Of a stretch of DNA of 64,000 nucleotides, positions 10,951-60,628 are shown piece by piece (positions within the stretch are counted from its first letter, which is position 1; every line of letters begins with the position of its first letter). Position numbers and translations under genes: made by a program. The notes beneath the pieces were generated by a model. The model did not search any database. It had not been told where the DNA came from and saw only the letters and a program-made list of their open reading frames with translations. Source of the DNA: Thelephora terrestris (lineage: Eukaryota > Basidiomycota > Agaricomycetes > Thelephorales > Thelephoraceae); contig WIUZ02000020.1 in NCBI GenBank assembly GCA_015956445.1, forward strand, positions 1-64,000, read 5' to 3'.

Positions 10951-11115
10951 CAAGGAAAGGGGAGTGAGCGGTGTAGTGCCTCCAGTTCTGGGGATGTGGG
11001 ATTCTGAGGTTTGCTGTCCTCAGTCCTCATTCCTCCTCCTCGCTTTTCCTCCCCTTTGCAACCTTTGCAACCTCCTCCTCTTCGGAACTTCTTCCTCTTC
11101 GCCGGAGCTTCCTAT

Positions 11116-11616: not shown

Positions 11617-11878
11617 TTCATTACTCCTAGCAAGCCTAAGACAATATTCAGATTTTGAATTGGCCTTTTGGCCCATCAGCTGTTTGCTTTATTGAGCGTG
11701 TCTCCAGGCGCTAAACTTTGGGAACTTAGGAAACACAGGTTCTGGATCTCATTTTCCGTTCATCGGCGTTGGCTTGGCGATCACTGCTAGATAGTAGATT
11801 ACCCACCCGCGCAGTGGACTAATGGTCACCTGTGTGCCCCAGATATGTACCGCTGTGTCGTTGCTTTTGTTTACGTTC

Positions 11879-12554
11879 TGTCAGGGTTACCAGCCTAAGC
11901 TTGTTCTGATGTCAGAGGATCAGTGTTGGGGATGGAAAGGGGGTTGGAGGAGATGTCTAGGGAGGTGGTATGTAGGGGCAGAGGAAGATGGATGTGGGGA
12001 TAGAGGGGTTTGTTCTCTTGGTTGATACCTGTAACCAATGAGAAGATGTTAGGAGTGTATTGAGGGTTCACACTTCAGGCAATTGATTTGCCCATCAAAT
12101 GAATAGAAGGGTGAGAATAGAGTATGGTTTATACTCTGATATATTGAAACTAATGATAGTGATTACAAAGAAGATTGAGGATGGGAAAAGAAAAAGGTCT
12201 GAGACACCTTTCCTTATATATATTCCCATCCAACGAGTCACATGATACTATTTGATACTATTTGGTCATCTGTCTTTGGCCTTATTTGGTTGGGCAACAA
12301 ATCATGTGATAAGTCACATGATGGGTTTCCACACATAGCCTTGATCATGCTCCGATCACCTGACATATTCCCATCACCTGACATATTCTGATCACCTGAC
12401 ATCTTCTGATCACCTGACATCTTCTGATCATCAGACACTCTCTCATTTCCTGCTGAACCACTTACTGCCCTCAGGCTGCTTTGATGGGTCTTGATGGCAT
12501 GAATCTCATTAACTACCTGGCTGATCTTTTGTTCCCAGAAGTGGATTCGTGACA
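11879..12554 (-). mobile_element. Solo LTR of a TGTCACGAA...CCCTGACA family
   Basis: 676 bp, plus-strand start TGTCAGGGTTACC and end ATTCGTGACA, flanked by a perfect 5-bp duplication CGTTC (11874-11878 and 12555-12559). The same end motifs and 5-bp duplication length are found at 36468-38779, and the two share a TATA-box region (about 12205-12235 against 37250-37280). TG...CA ends with 5-bp duplications are typical of LTRs; the likely orientation is minus. No internal region is attached, so it is a solo LTR fossil. Confidence 0.75.
12350..12435. repeat. 18-bp minisatellite inside the solo LTR
   Basis: Four to five tandem copies of an 18-bp unit close to TCACCTGACATCTTCTGA with a few substitutions. 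Read on the minus strand it gives a repeated GDQKMS hexapeptide, which is a by-product of the 18-bp period. Confidence 0.8.
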
Positions 12555-12559
12555 CGTTC

Positions 12560-13962
12560 AAGAGGTTGAAAGCTTTGCCGAAAAGACCACATCGCTAAGG
12601 GCCCAGTCCATGAAAGGGGGAAAAGGCGAAGACATTTATGGAAGGCCCAAGAACTCGCTGTATTCAACGAAGTCATCATCAAGGTGGAGCCGGCTTCAGC
12701 ACTTTGTCGAGTGCACAGCAATGCAGACACGTGGCCAAGAGGTTTGTTGAAGCCTTTCTGTCTTGGACATTTCCTGTTCCCAATCATGAAGTGACCGAAC
12801 AGCACCGTCCGAGATCGCATCGCGACCATGACGCTCAAGCGACCAACTCAGATAATGCAATGCTCTTCCGAGGCCTGCCTACTTCGTCACGGTGCTATGT
12901 CACTGTGAGTCGGAAACACAGGCAAATGAAAGGGAGAGGAAAATAATGTCCGACCAGATCACAGTTTTTATCCGACCAGCAAGATCGCGGTGTCGTGGCT
13001 GCATTCCTGCAGCTGTTGGATCAACAGATTTCCCCACGTTTTCCATTCCTTGCACTTCCCAACCATCCCAACCATCCCAATGTCCCGACGTTTGCAATGT
13101 CCCGATGTTTGTGACCCCCCCCCCCCCCGATGTTCTCGACCTCCTGATGTTCCCGACTCTTCGCAATGTTCCCCTATTCTTCTCAGTTCCCCTCCTTTCG
13201 TTGCTTATTCATTCTCCATGCTTATTCTCCTGTCCCCTGTGACTTCACCATCGCATCATGGATTCTTAATCATCCTCCCCCTAGCTTTCTCAGAGATCCC
13301 TTAGATATATATATGTCTCCCTTTGTCTTAGCTAGAGAAGAATCCAATCGACTGGAGTTGTTCCCCATTCCCCAGAGTTGCGATGAGTTCTCCCTCTATC
13401 TAATAGGGAGATTTTGTGTCTCCCTATTGTCTCCAGAAGCTTCCCTATTGTCACTATCGTCTCCCTATCGTTGCTATCGTCTCCCTATCGTTGCTCCAGT
13501 TTCCCTATCTTCTGCTTTGTCTCGCTATTGTTCACTCTGGTTCCCTCTTGCCTGCTCTGGCTCCCTACTTGATCCTGACGATTCCCTACGATTCCCGACG
13601 CTTTACTGAGGAGCTTGTTGGCACTGTACAACCACTGGACCCCCTCTCGACCCTTCCCTCTCCTAGCCATCCCAACTCTCCAGCAAATTGAGGGAAAACA
13701 ACGGGCGGAGACCTTGATCGTCCAGCACAGATGCCACCTTTCCATCCAACATCTCTGGTCCCAGTTTCGAAAGGAGCCTTAGGCATGACCCGTGCTCGGG
13801 GTGCAGGAGTGATTTCCGATGACGAACCCCGTCCGCAGGGAGTTCTATCATCAATGCATGTTTCCAAGGTAAAAACGGCCAAGAAAACCTTACTCCTTTG
13901 TTTCCATTCCTCCCGGGGTCTATGCGTCGTCCGCCGATGAAAGGTAGAAGGATGGTAGGCTG
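12560..13962. other. Unassigned region with a pyrimidine-rich tract
   Basis: The first 450 bases have no recognised coding signal. About 13020-13620 is strongly C/T-biased on the plus strand, with repeated TCCCTAT, TCCCGA and GTTCCC words and a C10 run near 13118. It looks like diverged LTR or satellite-like sequence. 13620-13960 is ordinary sequence with no recognised gene. Confidence 0.4.
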
Positions 13963-14261
13963 TGTTACCTGCTAACAATTGATGCAAGATGATGTAATCA
14001 TGCTCCCATGGTTACGACGTCATTATGTTCATGTTGAATCACAGTACAGTATATAAACAGTATTCGACCTCGATTACAGTAGGATACCTACCTCTCTCTC
14101 TCTCTCTCTCTCGCAAGACAAACCGTTGTCCCTTCCGTCGCCGTTCTGAGTGTTGCCGCCTCACGGTGTCGGGTTTGTGGGGAGTGTAGTGTTATTTTCT
14201 ATACAGAAGATAACTAACACCCTTTGATTTGCTTAGAGACTAGAGTATAGAAACCAAGCAG
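13963..14261 (+). mobile_element. Probable solo LTR, Copia-like, 299 bp
   Basis: Starts TGTTACCTGC and ends AACCAAGCA, with a 5-bp duplication GGCTG on both sides (13958-13962 and 14262-14266). Inside are a TATA box (GTATATAAACAG, about 14048) and a CT-dinucleotide run (about 14092-14113), the same order as in the Copia LTR at 16689-17041. Family assignment is by layout only. Confidence 0.55.
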
Positions 14262-16688
14262 GCTGGTTGATTAGTCAATGAACTCAACTAACAACTCCAC
14301 AGGGTAGAGCGGGGTTCCTCTTTCCGGCTCTTGGTCCTGATGAGTTCGCTGGGGATCTACTAGTAGTGTGTCCCTCAGTAATTATTCCAGGGAATCAGTA
14401 ATGTTATCACTCAGGGGTTCTGTACACTCTGATTAGACACCTAACTTCACCGTGGGAATCTGTGTTCTGATAGGAATGGAGTTCCTGACTCAAGGATGGA
14501 CCTTGAGGCTATGCTTGAGGCTGTGTAATAGTCCTGTGCTTAGGCTGTACCTAAAGCTGTGTTGAGGCTGTGTCGTGAAGCTAAACCAAATAAGGAAGGT
14601 GTACGCTTACACCTGAGGCTGTGCTTGATATGTCGTAAAAGTGACAAGATATGTCGTAGAGCTTATAGAGGTATGTCAGATATCTTAAACTTGCTACAGA
14701 TGACGCCTAGTACGTCAAACAAATATAACTTCAAATAAACTTGGGATAAAACGATATGTTGTAGAATATGTCAGAGACCTTTGTGGTACTTGCTAAATCT
14801 GGCTGTTACCTAGACAAACACTCTTCTGAGGTGGAGGGCTATCTGCCTAAAGTATCAGACTTCAGCAATACAGACACCAAAAACTCCAACGTCACAAGTG
14901 TGCTAGGCTTGATCAGTACTTCTGACTTAGTGCTTCTTCACACAGAGGATGAGGCTGAAAGTGGTATGTGATTACTCAAAATCACTCAACCAATCAGTCC
15001 TAAGGGGTAGGGGGTAGATGCAAAGTTGTGGGGGGGGGGAAACTAGCAAAGAGAGCCTCAGTCTAGGTGAAGACTGAGCTGTTGGTGATTCTCCCTGAGC
15101 AGTGGGTGAACTGATTGTCCCTTAGAAGTGTGGTTGAGGTCTATATACTAATTTACAGGAGAATGTCCCAGAACATTCCAACATATTCCACATTATTCCA
15201 TAACATTCCCTCATGTTCCATGGCATTCCGTTGACATGCCTCCATTCTCTGGAGTACTCGTCGGCAACGTTCCCCACGTCCCTTTCCCTCGGGATGCTTC
15301 GCGACATTTCGCGACATTTCTATACTCTCTATACCTCCCTACCCCTCCCTATGCATCCCTATACTTCCCTACATACCCGTATATCTCCCTTCACCTCACT
15401 ACTCCCTTCCCTATACTAACCTACTTGTCCCGATGCTTCGCGACTTTCCCAATGTTTTGGGGTCCTCTCTATCTCTCGTTACCCCCCCCCCCGACCTCCC
15501 TATATCCCTCCCAACACTACACCATTCGCGACCCCTCCCTATATCTTCTCCCAACTTCCCTATACCTTCGCGATATCTCCCTACACCATTCCCCTCGATC
15601 TCTCGATCCCTATGCTCGATCATTCCCTTTTGGTTCATTTCTCAACCACATCTCTTTCCTTGGTCGTTCCCTTCGATCCCTCGCCCTCCCTATGTCGTAG
15701 ACCCGTCATTAGGTCTTTTGACATCATTTGGTTTGTTCCCTCTTGCTTCCTACGTTCTCAGAGCCTCCTAGATTAGTACATAAGCCTCTGTATTCAATAG
15801 ACTCACCAGAGACCAATCCAGGGGACTGATTCCCATGTTTTCCTCTCCCTATCGTTCTCCTCTCGTCGTTGTCGTCTCCCTATAGTCTCCTGCGTCTTCC
15901 CTATCGTTCTCGTCGTCATACCTGCGTCCCTGCGTTCCCCTCGTCGTCTCTAGCGTCCTGTCATCATCCCAAAGATCCTGACCTCCCGAAGTTCTCGTCG
16001 TCGTCCCGAAGTTTTCCCTCATCGTTCCCTTGTCTGTTTCATTGATTCCCTTCTGTTATCTTTAGTTATCTTTAGTTCCCTCTTGATATTTACGTCTCCC
16101 TACACGTCCCGACGTTCCCGACGTTCCCGATGTTTCCCTACATTTCCCTACAGTTCCCTACGTGTCCCTACGGAGCTAGGAGGCATCGTACGACCAAGGA
16201 CCACCTTCATTGACGTTGACAGGGCACCCCATCTTCTCCCCATCGGACCTTAGCCCACATAGCCCCTGTTCACCGTCTTGTTCCTTTGGGTGACAAGTGG
16301 TCACATCTGTGACATTCCATCACCTTCTAGAATGTTCCATTACCTTCTAATACGTTCCAGTGTTCTCCAGTAGGCTCCAAGGAATTCCATGATTTTCCAT
16401 GATTTTCCAGGCTTATCTTATCTCTTATCTTATCTATTTGTCCTTATCTTATCAAATGAATAAACAATCTTTTATCCATAGAATATTCTTGCTTGGGCTG
16501 TAAGTACACTATTAATTGTGCGAAAAATCGTAAATAAATCATGATTGATCCAGGGGTCCGACAACAGCGACTTCCAGATGATCTGGTCGTGCTTGGCTCA
16601 CTCCAAGATCAAAGAGGAATGCATTGTGCCGTGAAGTTATTGGTGAGCAGTGACCTTGAGGCATATGTATATGTCAGGACTACCTGAC
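14262..16688. other. Gene-poor region with degenerate repeats
   Basis: About 2.4 kb without a supported gene. 14490-14640 repeats GAGGCTGTG-like words. 15160-15240 and 16310-16420 repeat ACATTCCA or ATGTTCCATT-like words. 15290-15770 and 15840-16160 are C/T-rich with recurring CTCCCTATA and TCCCGA. The pattern suggests old, diverged LTR sequence. It ends at the Copia target site (CTGAC, 16684-16688). Confidence 0.4.
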
Positions 16689-17041
16689 TGTTGAGCAGGT
16701 AGAGTATATTCTATACTACTACATGGCGTACTCTAATTCTTACCTGAGAGGGGAAGATATAGTAGTGCAAGTGGGAGAGAGAGAGAGAGAAGTGATTGAT
16801 TGATCTATGGACACATGAGGGGTATATATACTATCTACTCTATTAACGTCACATCTATACAGTGTGACTGATGCATGGTCCGTGCGGCGGCTTAAGGCAC
16901 GCGCGCGTCATACCGATCGATCGGGTCACTGATGTGACTCCGTCCCTTCGGGTCGCTTATTCAGCGCTCTCCGGCATCGGTTCTCGCACGAAGCGGTGGA
17001 GCCGGTTGACCCGTTGCCGGGCACAGACCTTCAGTTCAACA
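16689..17041 (-). repeat. 3' LTR of the Copia element
   Basis: 353 bp with inverted ends TGTTGA/TCAACA. It holds a TATATATA box (about 16826) and a GA-dinucleotide run (about 16772-16791). The adjoining CTCCCCCTTAC (17042-17052) is the polypurine tract of the minus strand. Confidence 0.92.
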
Positions 17042-17117
17042 CTCCCCCTTACTAAGTACAGCTCCCTGTATAACTTCATTGGTGGGAACTGGACTGTAGT
17101 AAGTTGGAGGTATGTGC

Positions 17118-18561
17118 TCAGAAGAATTCAAGGCCTAAGGCATCTCTAAATTTTCTGAGTTTGACGACTCCAAGGTTCTTCGTCAGGAGATCCGCGGGAT
17201 TGTCATCTCCGGGAATGAAATACACTACCACGCGTCCATCATTGATGACCTCGCAAATGTAATGATAGCGGATGTCGATGTGTTTCGACCTCTTTTCAGT
17301 AACCGGGTTTGAGGCGATAAAGATCGAGCCTTGGTTATCTCCGCAGATTGGGATGGCTTTAAGGTCATAGCCGAGCTCCCCCAGAAGGGTATGCATCCAG
17401 ACTACTTGGCGGCTACAATCGGAGAGCGCCATGTATTCAGCCTCAGTGGACGACAGCGCAATGGTTTTCTGCGCTCTTGAGGTCCATGAGATGAGTCCTT
17501 TTGCCATTCGGACAAAGTATCCACTTTGGGATCGTCTCTGAGTGGGGTCTGAAGCCCAGTCTGAGTCGGTACAGGCTGAGATACCTTCCCGTGAATCTTT
17601 GTCGTAGGTTAATCGATATTTGGAAGTCCCGATTAAATAGCGGCAGATATACAGCGCTTTCTCGACGTGCTCTTTTGATGGGTTTGCAGCATATTGCGCA
17701 AGTTTGGTAACCGCAAAGGCGATATCTGGTCGGGTACCCAGCATGAGGTATAGTAAGGAACCAATTATGGTTTGGAACCTGCTTCGTCTTTCCGGGCATG
17801 CTACTTCTGTCGACGGAGTCGGCACATACCCGGCCGGGAGAGGGGTTGCTGCGACTTTAGCATTTTGCATCCCACATCGCTCAAGGACCGTTTGAAGGTA
17901 GGCGCATTGATCTATGGAGATTTTGCTGCCATGTCGGGTGATCCTCATGCGGAGGAAATCGGTTAGGTCCCCTAAATCCCTGGTTTCCCATATCTTCATA
18001 AACTCCCCCTTGAGCTGCTCTGTAAGCGCTGTGTGGGGTCCGGTAAAGATGGCATCGTCTACGTAGATTAACGCAATTACGAATCTTCTGGTAGATGAAG
18101 ATCCCAGCATCTGAGCTCAAGGATTTGAATCCGAGCTTTTCCATGGACCGTTTCAGGGCTCGCCACCATGCGAGTCCGGCTTGTTTCAGTCCGTAGAGGG
18201 CACGCTTTAAGCGGAGAACATAAGTCTCTTTTCCTGGAGCTACGAATCCCTCTGGTTGTTCCATGTATATTTCCTCGTCGAGTTCGCCGTATAGGTACGC
18301 GTTTTGAACATCAAGTCCTTTGAGGGCCCATCCTCCGAGGGCGGCCATTGCAAATATTAGGTGCACTGTCTCGAATCGGACAACGGGGGAGAACACGGCA
18401 TTGTAGTCCATTCCCTCAACCTGTGAGAAGCCTTTTGCTACTAAGCGGGCTTTCTTGCGACCATCTGGTTTCTGGTCGAATACCCAGCGGTTTTTGATAA
18501 CCTTGCGGCCTTGAGGGCGCTCTACCAGGTCGTATACTTTGCGCCTGCGAAGAGCTTCCAA
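17118..18561 (-). CDS. Copia pol, reverse transcriptase and RNase H region
   Basis: Fossil coding region of the Copia element. Landmarks include KNRWVFDQKPDG, KARLVAKGFSQVEG, the YVDD catalytic box of Copia reverse transcriptase, and an RNase H region with ALSSTEAEYMALSDC and KHIDIRYHYI. It is the downstream half of the polyprotein whose upstream half lies beyond the nested Gypsy, at 32527 onward. Confidence 0.9.
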
Positions 18562-18671
18562 CTCTTCGTTGCAGGCTGTCCTCCATTCCTCGAGCTCTGC
18601 CTGTGGTAGTGTGGCGATGTCTCGGTATTTCCATTCTTTTGGAGTTTTTTCGTTGGCGGTTGGTGAGACGG

Positions 18672-19652
18672 TGAACTGCTACTATCCGGGTGGAGTCGGG
18701 ACACGACCAGAATAGCAGAAGTGGGGGTGAGGGGTCGCCGGTTGTGCAGAGGTTGGGAAGGGGAGAGAAGCTAGACAGAGGAGAGGGAGCCGCGGTAGGT
18801 CGCGACGTTGTCGGGACGAGAAGGGAGAACTCCGTACTAGCAAACTCCTGCTAGACGATGACGATGGGCTAGTAGGCTAGGGGTCTATTGGAACTATGGG
18901 GCTAGTGGAATCGATGTCAGAGCGAGGAGCTGGAGGTTTTCGATGATCAGGTCGTTCAAGCAGAAGGGAGAAGAGGTGTGAAGAGGCCCAGCGGTTTCTT
19001 GTTCGTTCAACTAGCTAGTACAGGGTATTTATAGGTAGGGACAGTGCGATCTACGCGAAAGAGATGAGAAAAGTAGCGAACAAATGGAGAAACGGTGGGA
19101 GAATAAGAACAGGTAGATAGAAAGGGATAAACGAGAGTCCGACGCAGGGTAGGGAGACGAACGGTTCATCGGGAAGCCGGAACGAGGCTGGGACAGGTCT
19201 TACCGAGAGGATGGAGCGATCGTGAGAAACAGAGCCAAAAGGGGAAGTCTACGGGTTCGAGATCAAAAGATCGTAACCGGGCGGGAGAGCGGGAGCAGTC
19301 GAAGATGATTGGCGAGCGAGAAGGAACGAGTCGACACGTGTCTAGACAGAAGGGAACCGGACCGGGGGAGGGGACGCGTCATCGCGACGAGATAAGGGAT
19401 CGGGAGGCATCGGCCGATCAACACGTCATGTGCCGTTCGGGGAGGACGGCCACGGATGCGGAAGCAGTAGGCGATGACGCACGTCGAGGGGATCGCGAGA
19501 ACGGTTTGATGATCGGGACGTCAAGTGGGCGTGACACCCCTGTGACCGATCGAGGGGTCGTCGGCTCGCGTAGTCAGTAGCTAGCGGGGTAGGGAGACAG
19601 GGACTGGGGACTAGCACTAGATTCGAAGGTCGCGCGAATAGACGGCGGGTCA
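18672..19652 (-). repeat. 3' LTR of the nested Gypsy
   Basis: 981 bp, TGAACTGC...GGGTCA on the plus strand. Matches the LTR at 31546-32526 base for base in every stretch compared. A TATTTATAG box lies near 19026. The internal boundary continues directly into the tag described at 19653. Confidence 0.93.
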
Positions 19653-19670
19653 TCTCCTCGAGACTTTAAA
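19653..19670 (+). promoter_or_regulatory. 18-bp tag, first copy, beside the 3' LTR
   Basis: TCTCCTCGAGACTTTAAA lies directly inside the 3' LTR, where the minus-strand polypurine tract is expected (AGGAGA read on that strand), and 150 bases upstream of the first antisense ATG. An identical 18-mer occurs at 21951-21968 upstream of the second antisense gene. It may be a polypurine remnant, a shared promoter element, or both. Confidence 0.6.
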
Positions 19671-19803
19671 ATTCAACCACCCTTGGTTGCGTGAGGTCGC
19701 CATGAGGCAAACGTGAGGCGTCCAAATCGGGAAGGCCGCGCGGAAGCAAAACGACGAGATCGCGGTTTCGCCAACTCATCACTTCTCTTTTCTGACCTCT
19801 GCC

Positions 19804-21737
19804 ATGTCCTCCTCTTCCAAATGGACTCCTCCCGCTGCTGCCAGCGACCCAATTATCCTGGAGGCCTTGGTACAAATTGCGCCGGAGGCTGGGGTGCCGA
19901 CCGAGGAGGAGCACGCCGATTGGAGTCGCCAATCGATCAGGGCCTTGGTCTCAGCTCGTGGGGGTCCTAAAGCGTTCGGCCCAATTTGGTCCACGGTCTT
20001 GCCGATCTGGAGGCTCAACGCGCTGCAGGGTAGGCTGGAGAAGGAGAAGGAGTTGCGAGGCCCGTGGCAGGTCCATGCACAGGCTTGGATGGTGATTAGT
20101 CTCGTCTAAATGTGGCGGGGAGGGTGGGGACTGAATCTTCTGGCTTCTAGGTTCGCCATCGGGACGTGTGCCGTAGCTTCGGGCTCCCGCCACTCCAAGT
20201 AATCGTGGACTGGGCTGACGAGATGGAAATCGCCGGTTGGCTCATCCCAGGCCCAGTCCCTCTTCCCGACGTCGCGGAAGTGACTCCCGCACCGGCCACC
20301 AGTCGTCAGCCGTCGATTCAGTCACTCAGGAGCGCGAACGAGACCTTCAGTCCAGCTGCCGGCCGCCAACCTCCAATTCGGTCACTTGGGGACGAGAACG
20401 CGGCTCCTACGCCGTCCGTTAGTCGTCAACCGTCCACTCGACCTACACCGCAGACGTCTGATCGGGACGAGGACGTGGCCATGGCCGAAACACCGAAGAG
20501 GGGTGTCGGGACGAGTCAAAGCACGACATCGGAGAGGCGGGGTGGGGTGCCATACGTGGATCTCTCTCGGCAACCCCCAGCTCCCAAGAAGGCACGGGAC
20601 CTCGTTATGTCCAACGTTGGGGCGAAGCGCGATCTTCCTGCCTCGCCGAGCAAGGAGGAGTCGATCTCCAAACGTTCGCGGACGACCGGTCGTGCAGGGA
20701 AGGAAAAGGAGGGTCCCGAAGACGTCGTCCCAGCTTTCCCACCTATGGACCTGGCTGGGGAAGTCTATGAGGAGGGTACGCCCCTGAACCTGACTGACTT
20801 CCCGGGTGCGCGCTCGATGGTACGTTTCGAGGTCCTTTTTCTCGTCGCGCTATGGGTTCTGACGCTTTGGTAGGCGTGTGACTGGTGCAGGGGCAAGCCC
20901 AGGATTGGGAAGGCATGCCGTCCAGCTTGGCACCCGGCCTTGCGGTCAACGGACACGCGGGTGTATCTCATCTGCGATACTTGCGTTGTCCAGAAGAAGG
21001 GCTGCAGCTTCAGGGACATGGACTTCGGGATAACGCACTGGCCGATCGTCGAGTGTTCGGAGGAGGGGGACAATCGCCGCCAAAAGGAGGCCAATCGCAA
21101 GGTTAAGGCTTCGACGGACGAGCCCGTTGGTGAGGAGGGGAACGTCTCGAAGCCGAAGAAGGCACCTCGCGTGCGGAAGACTGCTGCCTCTGCAGCTCCG
21201 GATCCCACCTCCTCTATTTCCACACGCTCGAAGACCAAGGCGGCCACGTTAGGGTCCTCGACTGCGGTTCCCACGTTCGCGATGGCTGGTCTGTCCGTTG
21301 GGGGTCCTTCCGGCGTTTCCTCAGGGCTTCACAGCTGGGAGGTCGACCTCCGCGATTTTGAGCAGGAGTGGGGCACATCCCAGGATTCGCCAGTGGCTAT
21401 TGAGCAACTGCGTGCGGCGCTCCGTTCCCAAATTGCCAGGGAACGCCACGAGGTAGATCTCATCGCGGACTTGGTGGCGTCTCGTCGGGATATCGCGAAG
21501 GGAATCCTTGCGAGGATGAACCATGAGATCATAGCTCGCGATGGCCAGCCCGTCTGGGACTCCTCCGACTTTGTGGAAACTTCTGACGATGGGGATGGGG
21601 ATGGTGACGTGTCTGTGGGTGCTGTGGGCGACGGTAATATGTTTTTGGACGGCGAGGATGTGGCGGGAGCTGCGGGAGGGGGATCTCAAGGTGTTGGCGA
21701 ATCTGGAGTGGCAGAAGAGAGGTTGCAGGATGTTTGA
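19804..21737 (+). CDS. Antisense accessory gene 1 of the Gypsy element, Cys-containing protein
   Basis: A plus-strand gene inside the minus-strand Gypsy, between pol and the 3' LTR. Three open segments (about 19804-20091, 20151-20819, 20898-21737) are separated by two short gaps with GT-AG ends and sizes typical of this genome (roughly 59 and 78 bases). The first segment opens MSSSSKWTPPAAASDP and is rich in helices; the middle is Ser/Pro/Arg-rich with basic KKARD and SKRSR stretches; the last starts with a short cysteine cluster (ACRPAW...LICDTC...GCSF) that may bind zinc, followed by a basic KPKKAPRVRK stretch and an acidic tail. I do not recognise the family. A nuclear or nucleic-acid-binding role is a guess from the basic runs and cysteines. 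Confidence 0.68.
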
Positions 21738-22233
21738 GGAACGAGGAGTAGGTCGCGTCGAATCTTTACAACTATCATCATGTACTTCTTAGCTTCTTGG
21801 ACTGTTGGTTTCTTGAATCGACTTGTTTTCTTGGTTTGTCGTGTGGTGAGATCCGTGAAATCAGCTGGGTAGGACATGGAGATGGTCTGTGTCCTCTTCG
21901 GCGGGTTGCGGGAGGGTGATCGGGAAGCAGGCGCGATAGTGGGGACTAGCTCTCCTCGAGACTTTAAACACTGACCGTCCTCGGTCACCATGACGACGTC
22001 CTGCAGGTCTGGGAGGCGTTCCACGACGGGAGGGGCGAGCAGCGCGGAAGGGAAAAGTCGACGGCACCCGAAGTACAGCTTCGCGGTCCGGTCGGGACGA
22101 TCGGGACGGTTCCGGCATCTTCCGAACCACGTGGGACGCAGTACGGTCCGCGAGGAGGGGGGAAAAACGTCGGGGGTGGTGATCGAGTGAGAAAAGAAAA
22201 TTTTTGAAGTCCACCACCACCAGCACGACCGCA
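21738..22233. promoter_or_regulatory. Spacer between the two antisense genes, with second 18-bp tag
   Basis: Holds the second TCTCCTCGAGACTTTAAA (21951-21968), preceded by GGGGACTAGC, a word that also lies near the end of the LTR. The following bases (GACCGTCCTCGGTCACC) resemble those after the first tag. This points to a duplicated promoter or an old LTR-edge remnant. No other gene is seen. Confidence 0.5.
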
Positions 22234-23544
22234 ATGCCTCTCATCGGGGCTCACTATCTCACCGACGGCGACGATCCTGTGTGGATAAACAACCTTGAAG
22301 CTCGCGATCCCCCCACTGATCGTCCAGGGGTCGGCTTCCTCGACATCACTCTTGCAGACATCGTGGAACGCGTTCGGAGCGAGCGTGGGGATCGCGATGC
22401 CTTGGAAAGGGCCACGAGTTCAGATGCTCTCTTCGGATTCGCTATCAGGGCCATTGAGGACGATCGGGGCCGCCCAGGCCGTCTGGGGGAGGACAGGGTT
22501 TGGAGGCGCCTCCTAGAGATGGGTCTCGCTGCTGATGGGATGTCGGGAGACGTTCGTGAGAGCATCGCGACCCGACAGGCGGTTCGTTATACCGCTGTGA
22601 TCGCGAACGAGCTCATGAGGCGTCAGGAGGGACTTGAAAACAGGGTATGTCGCCGGGACTGGTCGCGTCCGAGCATAGTGCTAACTCTTGAATGATAGAT
22701 TGAGGAAGTCCGTCTCCGCAATGAATGGTTGAGGATCCGCGTGGGAATGATGGACCAGGCCATGGACGAAATGGATGGGCACTACACCGCAGAGAGCGAG
22801 GCCGGGAGTCACTACGTGAGTCCTCGCTGTCCCGCGCAGGGTCGTGACGCTGACTGGGGCACAGGTCAGGGGTCTGAACGGCAGGATCACGTGGCTGGAG
22901 CAATCGCTCGCGGACTTCGTCGAGGCGTCTCTCATGCGTCGGGAGTACTATGGGGAAGTTGGGGTCCGTCGCGAGGGAGTCGCCGCTGTCGCGGAGGAGC
23001 CGGTAGCCGTTGGTGAGGTGGAAGATCCCCCTGTGGTTACGGAGGTCCAGGCCCAGGCAACAGGCGAGGACGGGGATATTGTCCTTGCGCACGGGGAGGA
23101 TCGCGAGGAGGCTCCGGTCCCGCTCGAGCGCGCAGAAACCGCAGAAACCGTAGGGGGTGTTGATCATGTGAGTTCATCAACTTGGTCGCGACGTCCACTG
23201 GTTGACCTGGGAAATCGTAGGTACCAACACCAGGTGTGACAGTCGTTGGGGCTAACACCATCGCGCAAGAGGGTCCACCGCCTTCCTATACACGTAACCG
23301 CAACTACGGGCGACTCCCTCCTGCGGAATCAGACGTGGCGGCTCGTGTACGAATGCTGCAGCACGCTGTCGCCTACATGCTCCGTGCTCGTGAGATGTTT
23401 GCGAGATCCACGGGCAGATATGCGGGATATGAAGACGACCTTGACCCCACGGAGGACGCCATGATGAACGTGGTTGGGGAGACCTCGCGACGCATTCGGG
23501 CTGAGTTTGGAGAGGGTCGCGACCGCAGAGGTGACGGGGCATAG
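22234..23544 (+). CDS. Antisense accessory gene 2 of the Gypsy element, coiled-coil-like protein
   Basis: A second plus-strand gene in the pol-to-LTR region. Four open segments (about 22234-22644, 22699-22815, 22865-23167, 23221-23544) are separated by gaps of about 50 bases with GT-AG ends, each keeping the reading phase. It opens MPLIGAHYLTDGDDP. The body is charged and helical, with heptad-like leucines and many Arg/Glu residues (ELMRRQEGLENR, RIRVGMMDQAMDEMDG, RITWLEQSLADFVEASL), so a coiled coil is likely. The tail has an RVRMLQHAVAYMLRAREMF helix. No enzyme motif is seen and the family is unknown to me. It ends about 220 bases before the end of integrase on the other strand, so the two are convergent. 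Confidence 0.65.
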
Positions 23545-23765
23545 TCCAAGGTAAGAGTGAACCAGCTGGTCATTGATGCGCAACTGCGAAGAAAAAGGGA
23601 CTGTAAATACAATGAAAGAAGGATAGCGTGCGAAGGAAACGTGGGCGTCTAGAAGGTAGATCGAAAGTGAGACAGCGTCAGAATCTTAGAAGGAGGCGGT
23701 CGCGAAAGTAAATAGAGAGGTGCATAGCTATAGTCCAGAATAAATACGAGACAGGTTGGTCTGTC

Positions 23766-25800
23766 CTAGAACGAAGGGGAGGCAACCTCGCGATAAGATC
23801 CAGCAGCGGGGTCCAAGGAACCGAAGAAGTGGACATCTTCAGGGTCTTCGCTGGTGGAGTCCTCGTCGTCGGGAAGAGTCGTGAAGCTTGGGTCGCGAGT
23901 CTCTGTACGAGCAAGGTAGGGGATCAGACGAAACCCGGCTACCCTGAGCTGAGACTGGGCGCCGTCGAGTTCAGCGACGATGTAAGAGGGGCCAGCCTTC
24001 TTGCGAATGACGGCATAGGGGCCATTGTACCGGGGCTTGGTCTTGCGGTTCAGAGACTCTTCGATGCGGGAGTTCCGAACGAGGACCAGGGATCCGGGCT
24101 TGAAATCGAAGTCTACAATCTGTGAACCATGGCGCTTCTCGAACCGTTCTAGGTTCTTGACGCGGGAAGCGGTAACTGTCTCCTGCATCTTCTCAATATC
24201 TTCCTCGCGCTTCGTGAGCTGACGAGCCCGGATCGCGATGAGTTCCTCGGTAGAGATGCCAAAGTCTTGGGCAGGGACGAGGTAAGTGGCTTCGAGAATG
24301 TCAAAGGGGAGGATGGGGTGGACACCGTGGACCATGTAGTAAGGGGAGAACCCAGTCGCCTTCCGTACAGTGACACGCTCGGCCCAGAAGACCTGCGGGA
24401 GAACCTCGCGCCACTTGGACTCGTTTCCATGACAGGTTTTCATGACAGCTTCACGGACATCAAAGTGCTTCGACTCGACAATCCCATTGGCTCGGGAGTT
24501 GTAGCCAGAGATGCGGATGTGTCGTATACCGTATCGCGATGCGAGGATGTCGAGGGCTGCGATATAGGAGGAACCGTTGTCGGTGACAATCTCGGCGATG
24601 CCGCCCCAACGACACAGGAGGTCCTGGAAGATGAAGTCGGCGATGACCTTGGCAGACTCGGAGGTAGTTGCCCGAGCTTCGGGATAAGATGTAAGCGCAT
24701 CGCGAGCGTGGATAACGTATCGGTAGCTTCCAGTCCTGGGCATAAGAAAGGTATCGATATGGGCTTTCCAAAACAAGCCGGGAACGGTCGGGACGGTTGG
24801 CGGGATGTAGAAGTATTCGGTTTGGCGCAGCTGACACTCGTGGCATGTCTTGACGTACCATCGGACGTTCTCACTGAGGCAGGGCCACCAGAAACGCAGA
24901 AGGAGGTTGGCTGTCGTCGCGAAGGCTCCCTTGTGGCCGAGGTTGTCGTGGGCAAACCGAATGAGGCGGAGGCGATCTGAAGGAGGAGGAACGAGCTGTG
25001 GGCTACCCTTGCGATTCTTCCGGAACAGCTTGTTGCCAACGAGGAAGTAGTCTGTGGCTTGGCGGATGAACTGCCGGTAGTCGTGGTCAGAGAGGTCTGG
25101 AGGGCGCTCCAAGTCGGACAGGAACTTCTGTATCACGACGAGCCGTTCTTCGCGACGGAGGCCTTTGGGGGACTGGGGGATCGCGACACCAGTCTCAGAA
25201 TCCGGTGAGGAGGATCGCGACGGAGCGGCAGAGTCGTCGGGAGGTTCTGGAGAGGGTCGAGGGGAAGGAGAGGAGGCATGCAGAGCTGGTTCGGGTTCAA
25301 TGGCGAATAATATAGAAGGTGCTGGGTCTAGGGGGGATCGAGGTGTGTTGACTTCAAGGAAGAATCCTGCGCCGAGGTCTATCCACTCTTCTAGTTCGTC
25401 CGGATCGTCGGGAGGCGGATCCTCAGGGGCGCGAGGACGACGGGAGAGACCGTCAGCTCCGGTGTGCTTGTCAGCGGGGACGTGGACGAGTTCGAAGTCA
25501 AAGAGCAGGATGGCAGATATCCATCGGTTCACGGCATCGTTGGGATGGAGCGTAGGGTTATTGAGCATCCCCTTGATAAACTTGGCATCCATTTCCACAG
25601 TGAGTTTCTTCACGCCGATGGTGTAAATCTGCGTCTGCTTGAGTGCGCGAAACAGCCCGAAGAGCTCGAGCTTGGCCTGAGAGTATCGCGACTCGCGATC
25701 GTTGAACGTGATGGACCCGAATCGACTGGGGTAGCGCTTTCCGTCTTCACCGACCTGAAGGAGAATGAAACCAACACCGTTCATGCAGGAGTCGACGGCT
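23766..25800 (-). CDS. Gypsy pol, RNase H and integrase region
   Basis: Fossil coding region. The first part has RNase H features (ESRYSQAKLELFGLFRAL). The integrase has the HHCC zinc region (HDNLGHKG ... CHECQ) and a DDE core with the second Asp in VTDNGSSY. The C-terminal part ends near the convergent antisense gene 2. The upstream half of pol is on the other side of the MITE at 25804-26644. Confidence 0.9.
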
Positions 25801-25803
25801 AGG

Positions 25804-26644
25804 CACTGGGGGCAAGGGGTCACTTACCCAGCAGATACATTGTGATTACATTGTGATTTTTTAGACAATTTTTCCAGCCTTTAGCCAGGAGGTACATGCT
25901 GAGTTCTTTTAAAAAGTACCCATCAATGCGACCACAATGTGGCCAGTGGGTCCATCTTGATCACTTTTACAAAGTGCCCATCAATTCAATCACAATGTGC
26001 CCTGTGGGTCCATGCAGGATACATTGTAAAAGTATCCATCAAAGTGGCCACTGGGCACTTTGTGAAAGAAACCCCTGGTTTCTTTCACAATTTTGTTCAC
26101 AATGTAATTTACTGGGTGCCTGAGCCACTCATTGAAAGTTCTTTCAAAAAGTACTCAGCAATGCAACCACAATGTCCCCAGGGGGTTCTTCTCAATGTTT
26201 TCACAATAAACTCTCAATGTGGTTGGATTTCACAACGAACTCTCAAAGAAACCATTTGAGTATCTGGTTGAGTACTTTGTGGACACATTGCTGGATACTT
26301 TATGAAAGAACTCTCTATGAGTGGCTCAGGGGTATGCTGGACACATTGTAAGCAAAATTGTGAAAGAACCCAGGGGTTTCTTTCACAAAGTGCCCAGTGG
26401 CCACTTTGATGGATACTTTTACAATGTATCCTGCATGGACCCACAGGGCACATTGTGATTGAATTGATGGGCACTTTGTAAAAGTGATCAAGATGGACCC
26501 ACTGGCCACATTGTGGTCGCATTGATGGGTACTTTTTAAAAGAACTCAGCATGTACCTCCTGGCTAAAGGCTGGAAAAATTGTCTAAAAAATCACAATGT
26601 AATCACAATGTATCTGCTGGGCAAGTGACCCCTTGCCCCCAGTG
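25804..26644. mobile_element. Foldback MITE, CMC/CACTA-like, subfamily 1, in Gypsy pol
   Basis: 841 bp with CACTGGGGGCAAGGGGT ends and duplication AGG (25801-25803 and 26645-26647). Closely related to the copy at 1008-1847 but with its asymmetric centre inverted, so the two were inserted in opposite orientation. It is the youngest layer of the nest. Confidence 0.9.
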
Positions 26645-28647
26645 AGGATGACTGGGCGTTGCGACTCGTAGTCGATGGGGCGTAGAGCTGGTGAGTTTAC
26701 GATCGCGGCCTTGAGGTTCTCGATAGCTGCCAACTGCGGGGGTCCGATTTCGAAGGGTTCGTCTTTCCGTGTTAGCTGGATGAGGGGCCTTGCGACGAGA
26801 GTGTAGTTCTTGATGAAGATTCGAAGGACTCCACACGTTCCCAGAAAGGCTCGAACCTCTGAAACATTTGTCGGGACTGGCCAGTCTTGGATGGCCTGGA
26901 TTCGCGAAGGATCCGCGATACGACCTTCGTAAGTACAGATGTGTCCAAGAATGTCGGCCTGAGGTACTCCGATGAAGGCCTTCTTCCCGCTAAACGTAGC
27001 CCCGTAGGACTTGACGCGCTGGATGATCCGGTGAACTGCTTGGAAGTGCTCCCAGACGAATCGTCGTATGCCTGGGTTTTCGGGGATAGTCTCATATGTT
27101 CCGTCGGGAAGCTCGTATCGCGACTTTGGGCCTTTGATGGGGACGTCGTCGGCGAAAGGCTGGGTCCAGTGTGGAATCTCGGGTCGAAGGATGTGGGATA
27201 CGTCGCCCTGTAACACGGCTGGGGAGTTCGTCCAACCCATCGGTAGAACTGTGAGTCGGAACGCGCCGAGGGGAGTGTTGAACGTGGTCATGTCGCGAGA
27301 GTCGGGATGAAGCTGACGCTGGTCGAAGGAAACGTATAGGTCGAGCGTGGTGTAGATGGAGCGACCAGCGAAGTCTTCGGCCACCACATCGGTGTAGGGA
27401 GGCATAGCGGCGTTCTTGATCGTAACGGCGTTGAGAGGCTCCAAGGAATGAACCAGACGTAATGACTTCCCATCCTTCTTGTAGACACAGAACCATCTAC
27501 TGTTGTAGGAGGAGGACGAGGGTTCGTAGACACCGGACTGCCACTTGTTCTCGATGATCTGAGTGACCTCAGAGAGGATCCCGCGAGGGATGGGGCCTTG
27601 TCTGAGTACCCAGGGCGTGTGCGCGATGTGCGGGATCTCGATGGGGGCGAAGTACTTGGGATCAAATGTCCCTCTCTCGTCGTCAGTCCATGCGAATGCC
27701 GTGTGATGGGTGCTAACGATCCACTCCGCGAGCTTCACTTCTTCTGGTAGCAGAAGTCCTTTGCCAAGCGCCATTTGCTTCCGGCGTTCGGGAGTGAAGC
27801 GGGGGACGGGGGCGTATTCGGGAGGGTGCGTAGGCAAGGGGGGCATGTCGGCAAGGGGGTCGGGATGGTCGTGCCGAATGATCCGAAAGTTCTCTGGCAG
27901 GGTGGTGGCGACGGGTCGAGTCTTGTTCGCTACTTTCTTGTACAGGAACGTGGATCCACCGAAGGTTTCGCTAGCGAGCGGGATCTGGGAGTAGAGCTCC
28001 GATAACCACATGCTGGCTGCTCGTGCGGGAGTGAGAGGGTCGAGAGGGGGAGATGGTAACTCTTCGCGAAGGGCTGCAAACTCTGTCGAAAGGTCGCGAC
28101 GGGCGGGAGCATTACCCATCGCGAGGAAGAGATGTTCTAGGCGTTCTGACGAAGTTCGTGCCACTTCGAGAGGTGGGTAACCGTCCTGGGTGTCTGCGTT
28201 GTTTTGGGGCGGTCCTTCCGTCACACTCGATCTGAGAGCTCTGTAGACCTCTAATGCCAGGTGGCGGGTGAGAGCTGGTGTCGATGAGGTGGTCGCGACG
28301 TCGGGAGGATCGGGGATATCGAGAGTGGAGCGATCCGATGGGGTCTCAGGATGGTCATCTATAGAATCGTATCCTATGAAGAAAGAGGAGAAAGGGGTGG
28401 GGGCAGCATAGTAGGATGATATGGGGAAAGGAGCAGAGGAGAGAAAAGGAGAAAGGACGGAGGAAATCGAGACAAGAGGAGGTGGGAGAGGAGACATAGG
28501 TGAAACTGACGCAAGTTCTGGTAGAGGGGACCGGGACAGGGAGGTATCATAGGGTATCCGATGTTTTGCGGCCTGCAGCTTGGCGTGCACTGCAGACACT
28601 GGGAGTCGGTTGGATTGGGACGCGGGAGTAGGTTCAGACGGCTCCAC
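26645..28647 (-). CDS. Gypsy pol, reverse transcriptase region
   Basis: Fossil coding region of the nested Gypsy. It shows the RT fingers and palm in order: WFCVYKKDGKSLRLVHS, the TTLDLYVSFDQ region, FRLTVLPMGWTNSP and an FADD catalytic box, followed by the connection region (FSGKKAFIGVPQADILGH). A Ser/Pro-rich N-terminal extension of about 130 residues precedes it. Confidence 0.9.
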
Positions 28648-28715
28648 GAAGATGTGGGGCTCTTTGCGCGAGAGCGGGGGAGGTTGGGGCTCTGTCGCGA
28701 CCGTAGTGCCGTCTG

Positions 28716-31397
28716 CTAATGAAAATTTACCGCTTCCTCGGGATTTGGTCGAGGGGACTTGCGGATTCGGGGCTGCGTCGCGAACACGTAAAGCTTCCCG
28801 GTCTTTGGGTCCTTGACGCGAATCTCGTGCTTTCCTCCTGCACTGCTGATTTCGGAGCAGCTGATGACATCAAAGAAGGGGCGTCCTAGAAGAACCTCGA
28901 ACGGTGCCTCTTCGACAACCTGTATCTGGAGGTAGATGGTGATGGGACCGAGCTGGACTGGGTGGTCTTCGACCAGACCTAGCGTCATGGTAGTGCTTGC
29001 ATTTGCCGACTCCATTGGCATAGCGCGACTCGCGACGATGGGTGCTTGCAATCGGGACCAAACATCCTTCCTCATGACCACAACCTGAGCGCCTCCGTCA
29101 AGGATGCACTCTGGTTCGACACCTGGTCCGAACGTGGGGTGGATGACGCGAAGAGGCAGGGATGAAGCCGCTGCGGAGGATGATGAGTCGTACTTCACGA
29201 GGTCCAGGAAGACTGAGGGGGTTTTGGTGTCGAGGCAACCAGTAAGGTAGGCGTCCACTTCGTCGATCTCCACCGTATTGGCCGAGATCTTCTTGCTGGT
29301 GACGATCTCCCGAACGTGCTTTCGTAGGTCGGGAGCGACGGCTAGGAGTTCGCGAGCACTGAGGTTGACCTTGGAGTCGAGCACGCGATGGACTATGTCA
29401 CTCGTCTTGACGTTGTGTTCGATCGGGGCTTGGAAGCGGTACTTGGAATCGTCGGGAGGTGGTCTAGGTGGATAGGAGACTGGTCGCATCGGTCCTTGGG
29501 GGCGCTGTGTCTGGCGATCTCCCGCTCGAGCTCCAGGCTTCCCGGAGGTGTTGGCGGTGGTCGTCTGGGTCTGGGTAGGAGCAGGAATGGTTTTGGACGG
29601 TCCCGACTCGCGACTGACTGGGGCAGGACCCGTAGGGGCAGGGGGTAGTCGTCCATCTTTTCGGGGTGGGCCTGTTCTTCTCGCGATCTCGACACCGTCG
29701 AATCTGACCTTCTTAGGGCCAGTCTGCAAGGCGTAGATCTGGGCGTTGCGAATGGAGTCGAGTTGGGCTTGCATCAGTTCGACCTGTTCTAGTGTCTCGT
29801 CGTCGTACTTGGATAGGGGGGTAGGGACGTAGCGATGCTCGACGGGAGTGTATGGTATGCTGGTAGTGGTGTGGTCCTCCTGGTCGGGATCGTATTCCTC
29901 CTCGAAGAGGTCGTACTGTTCGTCGGGATGGGCGTAATACTCTTCGGCAGGGGGGTCTATGTCTATGGTGAACACACACTCGTCTGGGCCTTCTAAGAAG
30001 TTAGTTGCAAAGGTGTCGCGATTTTGTCCTTCGTCGAGGCCCTCTGACGTCCAGTAGTTGTCGATTCGCTCGCGAAGATTCTTGCCGGGGATGTTCCGTG
30101 GAGGGTAGCGGCCATCAGGTAAGGATAGCTTCCCATAGCCGTTCTTGATGACCTTTCCTTGTACAAGGTAGTCCGCTGCGATGGGGCAGTCGCGAACGAA
30201 GTGGTCATGGGCGCTACAGAACACGCAGTTCTGGGTGTACTGCTCTGGGTTTAGGGTGTTCCACCGGGGGACGTTTTGAAATACTCCTCCCGGAGTAGTC
30301 TGGGAAGTAGCAGGACGAGGGAGGCGTGGTGGAGGGGCAGAAGGAGGGGGCCCACGGCGAGGCTGTACGTTCGCGGTGAAGACCCGAGTCAGGTTTGACA
30401 TCGCCTGGATGAGCTCGCTGACGCTCCCCTGCTCTGCAGGCTCCGTCTTCGGGATGACGGCTCGAGAGTCGGGGTTGTCGTCGGGAGCGCGTGCGTTAAG
30501 GACGAACAACGCAGCCTCGTGGACATCAGAGAACTGGTAACCGTCGTCGGGAAGGACGTCAGGCTTCTTGATCGACAGTCGATGCAGGATTCGTGCGCGG
30601 ATAGGCTGGGGGAATCCCCTGAGATAGGCGGCGTCACGCTCCCGAGCGGTGTAGCGTCCCTTCGCAATGAGGTACGCGGAATAGGTAAGGAAGGACCGGT
30701 GGTAGTCGCCGAGGTCTTCGCGACTCATGTCCCGGTACCCGCGAGTGCGTTCCAGGAGGGTATCCAGGTCTCGAGTGGTCCAGCGGCGATCCGCTTGGAG
30801 GTGGGAGTACAGATGTCTAACTTCGATCTTGAACTGAGCCCAAGTGGCGGGAGTGTGAGCGAGGACGTCCGGGTGCAAGCAGGGAACGTGCTCCCAGGAT
30901 TCAGCTGCGCGACCGGCGTAACGCTGAGCCCAGTCAATCATCTGTGCGTCGTCTAGACCTGCGCGCTTGGCTACCTCCTCGAGCTCGTCAAAGAAGGTCT
31001 TGAAGCCTTGCTCAGTATCGGAGGCAAACCGGGGAGCCTCGCGACTGTGCGTCAGGGGCATGTTGGCCGTCATTGCTGGATAAGATACGGGTGGGCGGGT
31101 GGGAAAAGTTGGTGTCGTTACCGGGAGGGCCTGCGCGAGTCGCGACGGGGAGTCTGGGGGAGTGTGCGATCGCGACGGCGGAACGGTGCCTGGTAAGTCG
31201 GTGGGTGAAGATAGTGGGGTGCGGAAGAAGGTCTCGTCTTGTTCGGGATGCGGGAGAGGGTTGTCCGATGAGGAAGCGATCTGCCGGGCTACGATGGCGG
31301 AAACGACGTTGTCGAGTAGAGAGAGAGTTTGGCGAGTGTCGAGAATAGCCTGTCGGGCTTCCCGAACGTCTTGGTTAATCTCGGCTGGGGCTTGCAA
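28716..31397 (-). CDS. Gypsy gag-protease open frame
   Basis: A long open frame of 893 codons. The order is a Ser/Pro-rich N-terminus, a capsid-like helical region (ARFASDTEQGFKTFFDELEE onward), a CCHC zinc knuckle (CVFC-x4-H-x4-C), an acidic linker, and an aspartic protease with a DGGA active site and the ILDGGAQVVVM context. The matching region of the copy at 1-3605 is interrupted by a MITE. Confidence 0.9.
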   Translation of the reverse strand: MQAPAEINQDVREARQAILDTRQTLSLLDNVVSAIVARQIASSSDNPLPHPEQDETFFRTPLSSPTDLPGTVPPSRSHTPPDSPSRLAQALPVTTPTFPTRPPVSYPAMTANMPLTHSREAPRFASDTEQGFKTFFDELEEVAKRAGLDDAQMIDWAQRYAGRAAESWEHVPCLHPDVLAHTPATWAQFKIEVRHLYSHLQADRRWTTRDLDTLLERTRGYRDMSREDLGDYHRSFLTYSAYLIAKGRYTARERDAAYLRGFPQPIRARILHRLSIKKPDVLPDDGYQFSDVHEAALFVLNARAPDDNPDSRAVIPKTEPAEQGSVSELIQAMSNLTRVFTANVQPRRGPPPSAPPPRLPRPATSQTTPGGVFQNVPRWNTLNPEQYTQNCVFCSAHDHFVRDCPIAADYLVQGKVIKNGYGKLSLPDGRYPPRNIPGKNLRERIDNYWTSEGLDEGQNRDTFATNFLEGPDECVFTIDIDPPAEEYYAHPDEQYDLFEEEYDPDQEDHTTTSIPYTPVEHRYVPTPLSKYDDETLEQVELMQAQLDSIRNAQIYALQTGPKKVRFDGVEIARRTGPPRKDGRLPPAPTGPAPVSRESGPSKTIPAPTQTQTTTANTSGKPGARAGDRQTQRPQGPMRPVSYPPRPPPDDSKYRFQAPIEHNVKTSDIVHRVLDSKVNLSARELLAVAPDLRKHVREIVTSKKISANTVEIDEVDAYLTGCLDTKTPSVFLDLVKYDSSSSAAASSLPLRVIHPTFGPGVEPECILDGGAQVVVMRKDVWSRLQAPIVASRAMPMESANASTTMTLGLVEDHPVQLGPITIYLQIQVVEEAPFEVLLGRPFFDVISCSEISSAGGKHEIRVKDPKTGKLYVFATQPRIRKSPRPNPEEAVNFH

Positions 31398-31545
31398 AGC
31401 CAGGAGCCGAGCGCGAGATCGCGTCTGAGGGGGGGAGAAATCTAGCGGGATAACCTTCTGCGCACGACCTCGTCCGCGGGGTGGAATGGCTGATAGCTTC
31501 TAGCCACAAGTGACCTCTGAACCGGTCTCGGCGTGGGTTCCAAAA

Positions 31546-32526
31546 TGAACTGCTACTATCCGGGTGGAGTCGGGACACGACCAGAATAGCAGAAGTGGGG
31601 GTGAGGGGTCGCCGGTTGTGCAGAGGTTGGGAAGGGGAGAGAAGCTAGACAGAGGAGAGGGAGCCGCGGTAGGTCGCGACGTTGTCGGGACGAGAAGGGA
31701 GAACTCCGTACTAGCAAACTCCTGCTAGACGATGACGATGGGCTAGTAGGCTAGGGGTCTATTGGAACTATGGGGCTAGTGGAATCGATGTCAGAGCGAG
31801 GAGCTGGAGGTTTTCGATGATCAGGTCGTTCAAGCAGAAGGGAGAAGAGGTGTGAAGAGGCCCAGCGGTTTCTTGTTCGTTCAACTAGCTAGTACAGGGT
31901 ATTTATAGGTAGGGACAGTGCGATCTACGCGAAAGAGATGAGAAAAGTAGCGAACAAATGGAGAAACGGTGGGAGAATAAGAACAGGTAGATAGAAAGGG
32001 ATAAACGAGAGTCCGACGCAGGGTAGGGAGACGAACGGTTCATCGGGAAGCCGGAACGAGGCTGGGACAGGTCTTACCGAGAGGATGGAGCGATCGTGAG
32101 AAACAGAGCCAAAAGGGGAAGTCTACGGGTTCGAGATCAAAAGATCGTAACCGGGCGGGAGAGCGGGAGCAGTCGAAGATGATTGGCGAGCGAGAAGGAA
32201 CGAGTCGACACGTGTCTAGACAGAAGGGAACCGGACCGGGGGAGGGGACGCGTCATCGCGACGAGATAAGGGATCGGGAGGCATCGGCCGATCAACACGT
32301 CATGTGCCGTTCGGGGAGGACGGCCACGGATGCGGAAGCAGTAGGCGATGACGCACGTCGAGGGGATCGCGAGAACGGTTTGATGATCGGGACGTCAAGT
32401 GGGCGTGACACCCCTGTGACCGATCGAGGGGTCGTCGGCTCGCGTAGTCAGTAGCTAGCGGGGTAGGGAGACAGGGACTGGGGACTAGCACTAGATTCGA
32501 AGGTCGCGCGAATAGACGGCGGGTCA
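31546..32526 (-). repeat. 5' LTR of the nested Gypsy
   Basis: 981 bp, same ends and length as the 3' LTR at 18672-19652. On its internal side, three bases away, the minus strand reads TGGAACCCACGCC, which begins TGG as expected for a primer site matching a tRNA 3' CCA end. The tRNA was not assigned. Confidence 0.92.
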
Positions 32527-36467: not shown

Positions 36468-36487
36468 TGTCAGGGTTGTGGGCCTGC

Positions 36488-38924: not shown

Positions 38925-38929
38925 CTGAC

Positions 38930-60524: not shown

Positions 60525-60628
60525 CTGCAATTTGGACAATAAACGTTTGACCCAACAGACGAGTATGAGACAGGATTGTTGCGCCACGCGCGGTTGGCAT
60601 TACCGCATCGCTACAGCACGCCAGCGGG

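Follow-up and report, generated by a model that had tools for sequence, protein, structure and literature searches.

Analysis of positions 1 to 64,000 of contig WIUZ02000020.1 from the basidiomycete Thelephora terrestris (assembly GCA_015956445.1; this whole stretch of 64,000 nucleotides is hereafter termed the window) reveals a Ty3/Gypsy element on the minus strand that carries, between its integrase and its 3' long terminal repeat (LTR), two spliced gene models that are intact and run on the plus strand, with a shared 18-nt box ahead of each. Gene 1 (plus strand, 19804-21737) is modelled with three exons encoding 606 amino acids and gene 2 (plus strand, 22234-23544) with four exons encoding 384 amino acids, both being antisense to gag-pol. 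As predictions from sequence, the two antisense genes are very probably real, and there is good reason to believe that they belong to the element family. On balance we favour the interpretation that the element possesses a two-gene antisense accessory module, lying between the integrase and the 3' LTR, which would tune gag-pol transcription. The regulatory role of the pair on LTR activity, taken by itself, draws on analogy and is put forward more tentatively.

The architecture of the element allows the two genes to be placed within its borders. It spans 18672-32526 (13,855 bp) and is delimited by a pair of TG..CA-ended LTRs and by a target site duplication of 4 bp, while the Pfam matches along its minus strand follow the Gypsy pol order of reverse transcriptase (RT), RNase H and integrase (Table 1). 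Further, the frame of the Copia element that received the insertion reads across the insertion site once one 4-bp ACGG copy is removed. Judged from these features, the insertion of the Gypsy copy is recent and its borders are evident, and the identical LTRs together with the target duplication point to a recent passage through RNA. The same two features, along with the tract adjoining the LTR, also place the region holding the antisense genes inside the element. The pol region of this copy is split by an insert resembling a miniature inverted-repeat transposable element (MITE), and hence the copy is young but already broken. The initial annotation of this DNA had noted about 4 kb of additional sequence between the end of the integrase and the 3' LTR, and this extra stretch, running from the 3' LTR (19652) to the pol stop (23766), indeed amounts to 4,113 bases (19653-23765).

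Inspection of the two gene models shows that all five introns have GT-AG ends and lengths of 49-59 nt, and, on account of all seven exon lengths being divisible by three, that all five are in phase 0. A branch-point-like motif of the YTNA type is present in each of them, starting 15-20 nt ahead of the intron end. Apparent introns of about 50 nt, judged by eye, are also seen in two host genes of the window, namely the ERG4/ERG24 sterol gene and the SLAC1-like gene. The models, together with the shuffles described below, bear out the earlier proposal of two intron-containing genes antisense to gag-pol inside the LTRs; the GT-AG ends and the preservation of phase likewise stand, although the intron lengths of about 50-80 bases given at that stage give way to the shorter measured range. 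Introns are normally lost on copying through RNA, and intron-bearing genes persist only in reverse orientation. In the present element the introns would persist because the genomic RNA, corresponding to the minus strand, carries them reversed and unspliceable. This explanation, already offered in the initial annotation, agrees with the presence of all five introns in a young, RNA-derived copy, provided that the region was present at insertion.

Table 1. Features of the Ty3/Gypsy element and of the antisense gene models, in window coordinates
Feature	Position	Strand	Basis or remark
Target site duplication ACGG, 4 bp	18668..18671 + 32527-32530	.	in Copia element
3' LTR of Gypsy element, TG..CA ends	18672..19652	-	981 bp, 100% identity to 31546-32526
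18-mer TTTAAAGTCTCGAGGAGA, probable polypurine tract adjoining 3' LTR	19653..19670	-	sequence match
Gene 1 exon 1	19804..20091	+	gene model, longest-frame search
Gene 1 intron 1, 59 nt	20092..20150	+	GT-AG, phase 0
Gene 1 exon 2	20151..20819	+	gene model, longest-frame search
Gene 1 intron 2, 54 nt	20820..20873	+	GT-AG, phase 0
Gene 1 exon 3: Cys cluster, basic runs, predicted long helix	20874..21737	+	gene model, longest-frame search
Second exact 18-mer copy, between gene 1 and gene 2	21951..21968	-	sequence match
Gene 2 exon 1	22234..22644	+	gene model, longest-frame search
Gene 2 intron 1, 54 nt	22645..22698	+	GT-AG, phase 0
Gene 2 exon 2, coding for almost the whole zipper-like heptad stretch	22699..22815	+	gene model
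Gene 2 intron 2, 49 nt	22816..22864	+	GT-AG, phase 0
Gene 2 exon 3, second heptad stretch at its start	22865..23167	+	gene model
Gene 2 intron 3, 53 nt; equal-length alternative 23217-23269	23168..23220	+	GT-AG, phase 0
Gene 2 exon 4 and stop	23221..23544	+	gene model
RNase H and integrase frame (RT_RNaseH, Integrase_H2C2, rve)	23766..25802	-	Pfam matches
MITE-like insert in pol, inverted arms 302 bp	25804..26644	.	repeat search
Reverse transcriptase frame	26647..28869	-	RVT_1 Pfam match
Gag-protease frame (DUF4100, gag-asp protease)	28716..31499	-	Pfam matches
Putative primer-binding-like stretch TGGAACCCACGCC	directly after 5' LTR	-	read from sequence
5' LTR of Gypsy element	31546..32526	-	981 bp, 100% identity to other LTR

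The openness of the spliced frames provides evidence for the coding capacity of the region. A search by dynamic programming for the longest frame from ATG to stop, allowing introns of the observed kind, reproduces gene 1 exactly; it also reproduces gene 2, apart from a tie with an equally long alternative at the third intron. The intron rule was fixed after the introns had been seen, and the identical rule was applied to shuffles and controls. With dinucleotide shuffling of the half of the region that holds each gene, the length of gene 1 was reached in none of 2000 shuffles (mean 183, maximum 537) and that of gene 2 in 3 of 2000 (mean 147, maximum 415). The minus strand of the two halves yields longest spliced frames of only 162 and 185 codons, and seven control stretches of the window, read on the plus strand, yield 92-244 codons. 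Additionally, a 3-base periodicity is seen in all seven exons (p from about 0.02 to 2e-10), with none in three presumed noncoding stretches, namely the LTR and the mutually overlapping 12000-14299 and 14000-15997. Once the introns are removed, the periodicity chi-square rises from 67.7 to 86.0 for gene 1 and from 33.5 to 96.8 for gene 2. In the spliced sequences, each of the reverse frames is interrupted by 3 to 19 stops, and the two other plus frames by 9 to 17. Since antisense readings of real genes are also periodic, the strand is not settled by periodicity alone, and its assignment rests on frame openness and splicing.

A further feature uniting the two genes is the 18-mer, one copy of which lies ahead of each. 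The window holds just these two matches at up to 3 mismatches, as against a shuffle expectation of 0.06, and the two copies contain the only TTTAAA or TATAAA in 19400-23900 in the plus-strand reading. From the TTTAAA box to the start codon the distance is 139 nt for gene 1 and 271 nt for gene 2. The sequences around the two copies have little in common: an 11-mer found both at the end of the LTR and immediately ahead of the internal 18-mer is weak (13 of 500 shuffles), as is the likeness of the stretches that follow both copies (12 of 500). Against flanks so barely similar, the 18 bases are conspicuous, as would follow from constraint or recent copying. Separately, the spacer between gene 1 and gene 2 was compared with the LTR as a possible site of an old LTR, a candidate that was discarded as the comparison was not significant (42 of 300 shuffles).

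Three uses fit the 18-mer, namely as a promoter box of the antisense genes, as a duplicated primer tract, or as a scar left by the addition of the gene 1 module. Its LTR-adjacent copy is likely to be the plus-strand primer tract. We favour use as a promoter box, combined with primer use of at least the LTR-adjacent copy. According to a review (PMC5371799), a central tract has not been identified for Ty3, unlike in retroviruses and Ty1. Duplication of the tract in a Ty3/Gypsy element would be of relevance to plus-strand priming.

The predicted proteins supply the features from which a function might be surmised. At the start of its third exon gene 1 encodes a Cys6 cluster with the spacing CX2CX9CX18CX2CX6C, accompanied by basic runs which, by eye, resemble nuclear localisation signals. 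A long helix is predicted within the same exon with moderate confidence (block-mean pLDDT, the predicted local distance difference test score, of 69-85 over exon residues 171-220). The cluster is comparable to that of the Zn2Cys6 (GAL4 type) family in likewise having six cysteines in two CX2C-led halves, but GAL4-type spacing starts CX2CX6C and the Zn2Cys6 family profile was not matched by gene 1 (Pfam, E 1 or better). Residues 134-162 of gene 2 form a zipper-like heptad stretch, LENRIEEVRLRNEWLRIRVGMMDQAMDEM, in which one core 'a' position is taken by asparagine, a common feature of leucine zippers. This stretch was first chosen by eye, and its score is equalled in 7 of 2000 shuffles of the sequence around it. 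It starts with the final four residues of exon 1, and as only one core residue precedes the join, it constitutes little evidence for the joining of exons 1 and 2. The 28-residue segment holding the second heptad stretch of gene 2 was equalled in score by 1 of 300 shuffles of the full-length protein. The initial annotation had described one protein with a cysteine cluster and basic runs and another resembling a coiled coil, and these descriptions suit gene 1 and gene 2, respectively. The two genes are without significant mutual similarity (best blastp E 0.57), and searches against PDB sequences gave only weak, unconvincing matches (E 0.027; E 0.58 and 0.59).

These features can be assembled into a conditional mechanism for the antisense module. 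Host RNA polymerase II would transcribe both genes from the plus strand, with promoters at the 18-nt boxes and perhaps, in the case of gene 1, additional use of the LTR end, and the host spliceosome would remove the short introns from the plus-strand messages. Gene 1 would give rise to a nuclear protein with a Cys6 cluster and gene 2 to a zipper-type protein, and the two might work in trans, at the LTR or its chromatin, to determine the strength of gag-pol transcription, as HBZ does in human T-cell leukaemia virus type 1 (HTLV-1). Tuning of LTR activity appears the most likely function on the analogy with HTLV-1 HBZ and maize GENE23. A more far-reaching version, which we regard as unlikely, is that a fungal Gypsy lineage maintains by itself an intron-containing antisense regulatory pair, wherein the 18-nt box serves as plus-strand primer tract and, on the opposite strand, as antisense promoter, and its internal copy is a central primer tract that also drives gene 2. 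The presence of a spliced antisense pair in a retrotransposon would demonstrate that antisense programmes of several genes can arise in LTR elements other than retroviruses, and would make it possible to test cleanly whether such genes benefit their element or hold it in check.

Several observations weigh against a regulatory module of this kind. In terms of synonymous codon choice the two genes show no gain when compared with the gag-pol of the element (-0.116 and -0.054 bits), in a comparison where gag itself gains just 0.088 bits. In gene 1 the proposed frame is even outscored by the third plus frame (+0.025 bits), which has 17 stops. As a control, the antisense of gag was found to be as periodic as gag. 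No Pfam family was recovered for gene 1 at E 1 or better, and Pfam gave for gene 2 only a sub-threshold match to RPC5_C (E 0.23) and no basic leucine zipper (bZIP) family. Single-sequence AlphaFold models are poor, with a mean pLDDT of 51 for exon 3 of gene 1 and 40 for exon 1 of gene 2; the best heptad score of gene 1 is ordinary, being equalled in 34 of 300 shuffles; and acidic residues outnumber basic ones in both proteins. With respect to the 18-mer, TTTAAA is self-complementary and thus gives no direction, and the primer tract proper, GAGGAGA, is short. Lastly, no relative emerged from scans of viral contigs (with gene 1 exons 2 and 3, gene 2, the integrase, the RT, and integrase/RT motif patterns) or of prokaryotic genome contigs (with the RT motif pattern and gene 1); these scans used short exact peptide patterns, which reach close relatives only, and being confined to viral and prokaryotic collections they say little on fungi. 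A single match to gene 1 exon 3 in the viral scan, on contig L001, was judged a chance match on a phage-like contig.

A second copy of the Gypsy family lies at 1-4760, and ends at the window edge early in the RT frame, before the antisense region would be reached. It is 98.7% identical to the first copy over 28633-29642 and 96.7% over 29640-32530 (LTR included), with 92% for the LTR alone, and it has a frame shift in gag-protease as well as a MITE of its own at 1008-1847. The MITE-like inserts at 25804-26644 and 1008-1847 both have long inverted arms and occupy different places in the two Gypsy copies, and diverged relatives of theirs at 5508-7676 form a near-palindromic pair.

Among the alternatives to an element-borne regulatory pair, the one that survives best, though we consider it fairly improbable, is the recent transduction of host genes into this copy, or into a few copies, without any role in the element cycle. 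Introns are to be expected from a capture at the DNA level or in antisense orientation, and the GC content of the antisense region (0.596 over 19653-23700) exceeds that of the pol stretch (0.549 over 23766-28869, MITE included). The codon choice unlike that of gag-pol and the failure of the viral and prokaryotic contig scans to find a relative point the same way. Against it stand the two complete tandem gene models, which take up the greater part of the interval from the primer tract to pol and are each preceded by a copy of the LTR-adjacent 18-mer. A lower probability attaches to the antisense transcript itself being the agent, pairing with the genomic RNA and feeding small-RNA silencing such that the element damps itself. 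A plus-strand transcript would be the complement of the 3' portion of the genomic RNA, save at the introns in its spliced form, and such a role is discussed for plant elements (PMC7264820); yet 606 and 384 open codons and five in-phase introns would be unnecessary for a pure RNA role.

Less probable again is a separate non-autonomous element, bearing one or both genes, nested in the Gypsy copy. The direct 18-mers do bracket the gene 1 module in the manner of the target duplication of an old insertion, but one of them adjoins the 3' LTR, precisely where the primer tract must lie, and in a repeat search of 10000-28000 (at least 30 nt, seed 14) the stretch 19653-23765 contained no inverted repeat and the 18-mer pair as its sole direct repeat. 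Finally, that the open frames are chance products or decayed remnants in GC-rich DNA is highly improbable: stop-to-stop frames of more than 150 amino acids do occur on both strands of the region and codon choice is uninformative, but the outcome of the shuffles, the shorter frames in all seven plus-strand controls and the gain in periodicity upon splicing speak against it. We retain the two-gene antisense module as the preferred interpretation.

The rest of the window contains further transposable and host-type sequences. The Copia element, now in two parts (16688-18671 and 32527-38926), is split by the Gypsy insertion, and as its LTR pieces are 99-100% alike, it too is young, one insertion being nested within the other. 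A 2,312-bp insert (36468-38779) sits in the 5' LTR of this Copia element; its ends are TG..CA, a duplication of 5 bp (GCACG) accompanies it, and it resembles a solo LTR or a compact element, yet has two divergent frames of 246 amino acids on the plus strand and about 249 amino acids, spliced, on the minus strand. Both frames are periodic, as is the 271-bp remainder of the insert (p 0.0017), and no Pfam match was obtained for the plus-strand frame or for 229 amino acids of the minus-strand frame. At 57834-63235 there is a tandem duplication of about 2.7 kb with 90% identity and a similar open reading frame (ORF) of about 185 amino acids per unit, that of the first unit being without a Pfam family at E 0.01. 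The host-type genes of the window comprise the ERG4/ERG24 and SLAC1-like genes mentioned above and one for an ankyrin-repeat protein, the first and last of which give the window a fungal appearance.

The present pair lies opposite to gag-pol and between pol and the 3' LTR, an arrangement designated aORF-3R. Antisense ORFs in this location are already established in plants and are cited for one fungus. Those described from maize Grande (gene23), rice RIRE2, Retand and PvRetro13 share both place and orientation with the present pair. In a survey of Retand, every representative element had at least one antisense ORF, the regions between pol and the 3' LTR spanned 2.9-6.6 kb, and 97% of the clusters encoded the antisense protein TRP28 (PF04195) (PMC11963269). 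Unlike these, neither protein of the present element matches TRP28 (Pfam, E 1 or better). GENE23 of maize Grande is reported to be nuclear and to be transcribed from a promoter upstream of the gene (PMC7264820), and the word 'intron' is absent from the main texts of these two papers.

The plant precedent invoked by the initial annotation is hence sound, but the precedent is wider than had been claimed, as it extends to the fungal Gypsy element Boty with its gene brtn. The fungus in question, Botrytis cinerea, is an ascomycete. Boty/BcGypsy1 is comparable to the element described here in being a fungal Gypsy element with an additional antisense gene, known to us by citation only (Zhao et al. 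2011, cited in PMC7264820 and PMC8365987), and differs in having, as cited, a single such gene instead of a pair. Beyond the LTR retrotransposons, HBZ of HTLV-1 and APH-2 of HTLV-2 are spliced antisense genes expressed from the 3' LTR whose products are nuclear, and HBZ has a bZIP domain and reduces expression driven by the 5' LTR (PMC10186651). The present gene models would be compatible with spliced antisense messages of this sort. These viruses are unrelated retroviruses, and the Gypsy element differs in having two genes and five introns, with a promoter and function that we only infer. Among the matches listed in the open-access literature there was neither a basidiomycete case nor an intron-bearing antisense pair, which is weak evidence of absence. 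Taken alongside the plant, fungal and retroviral systems, the spliced antisense pair of this Gypsy element seems to be a new variation on the known antisense ORFs.

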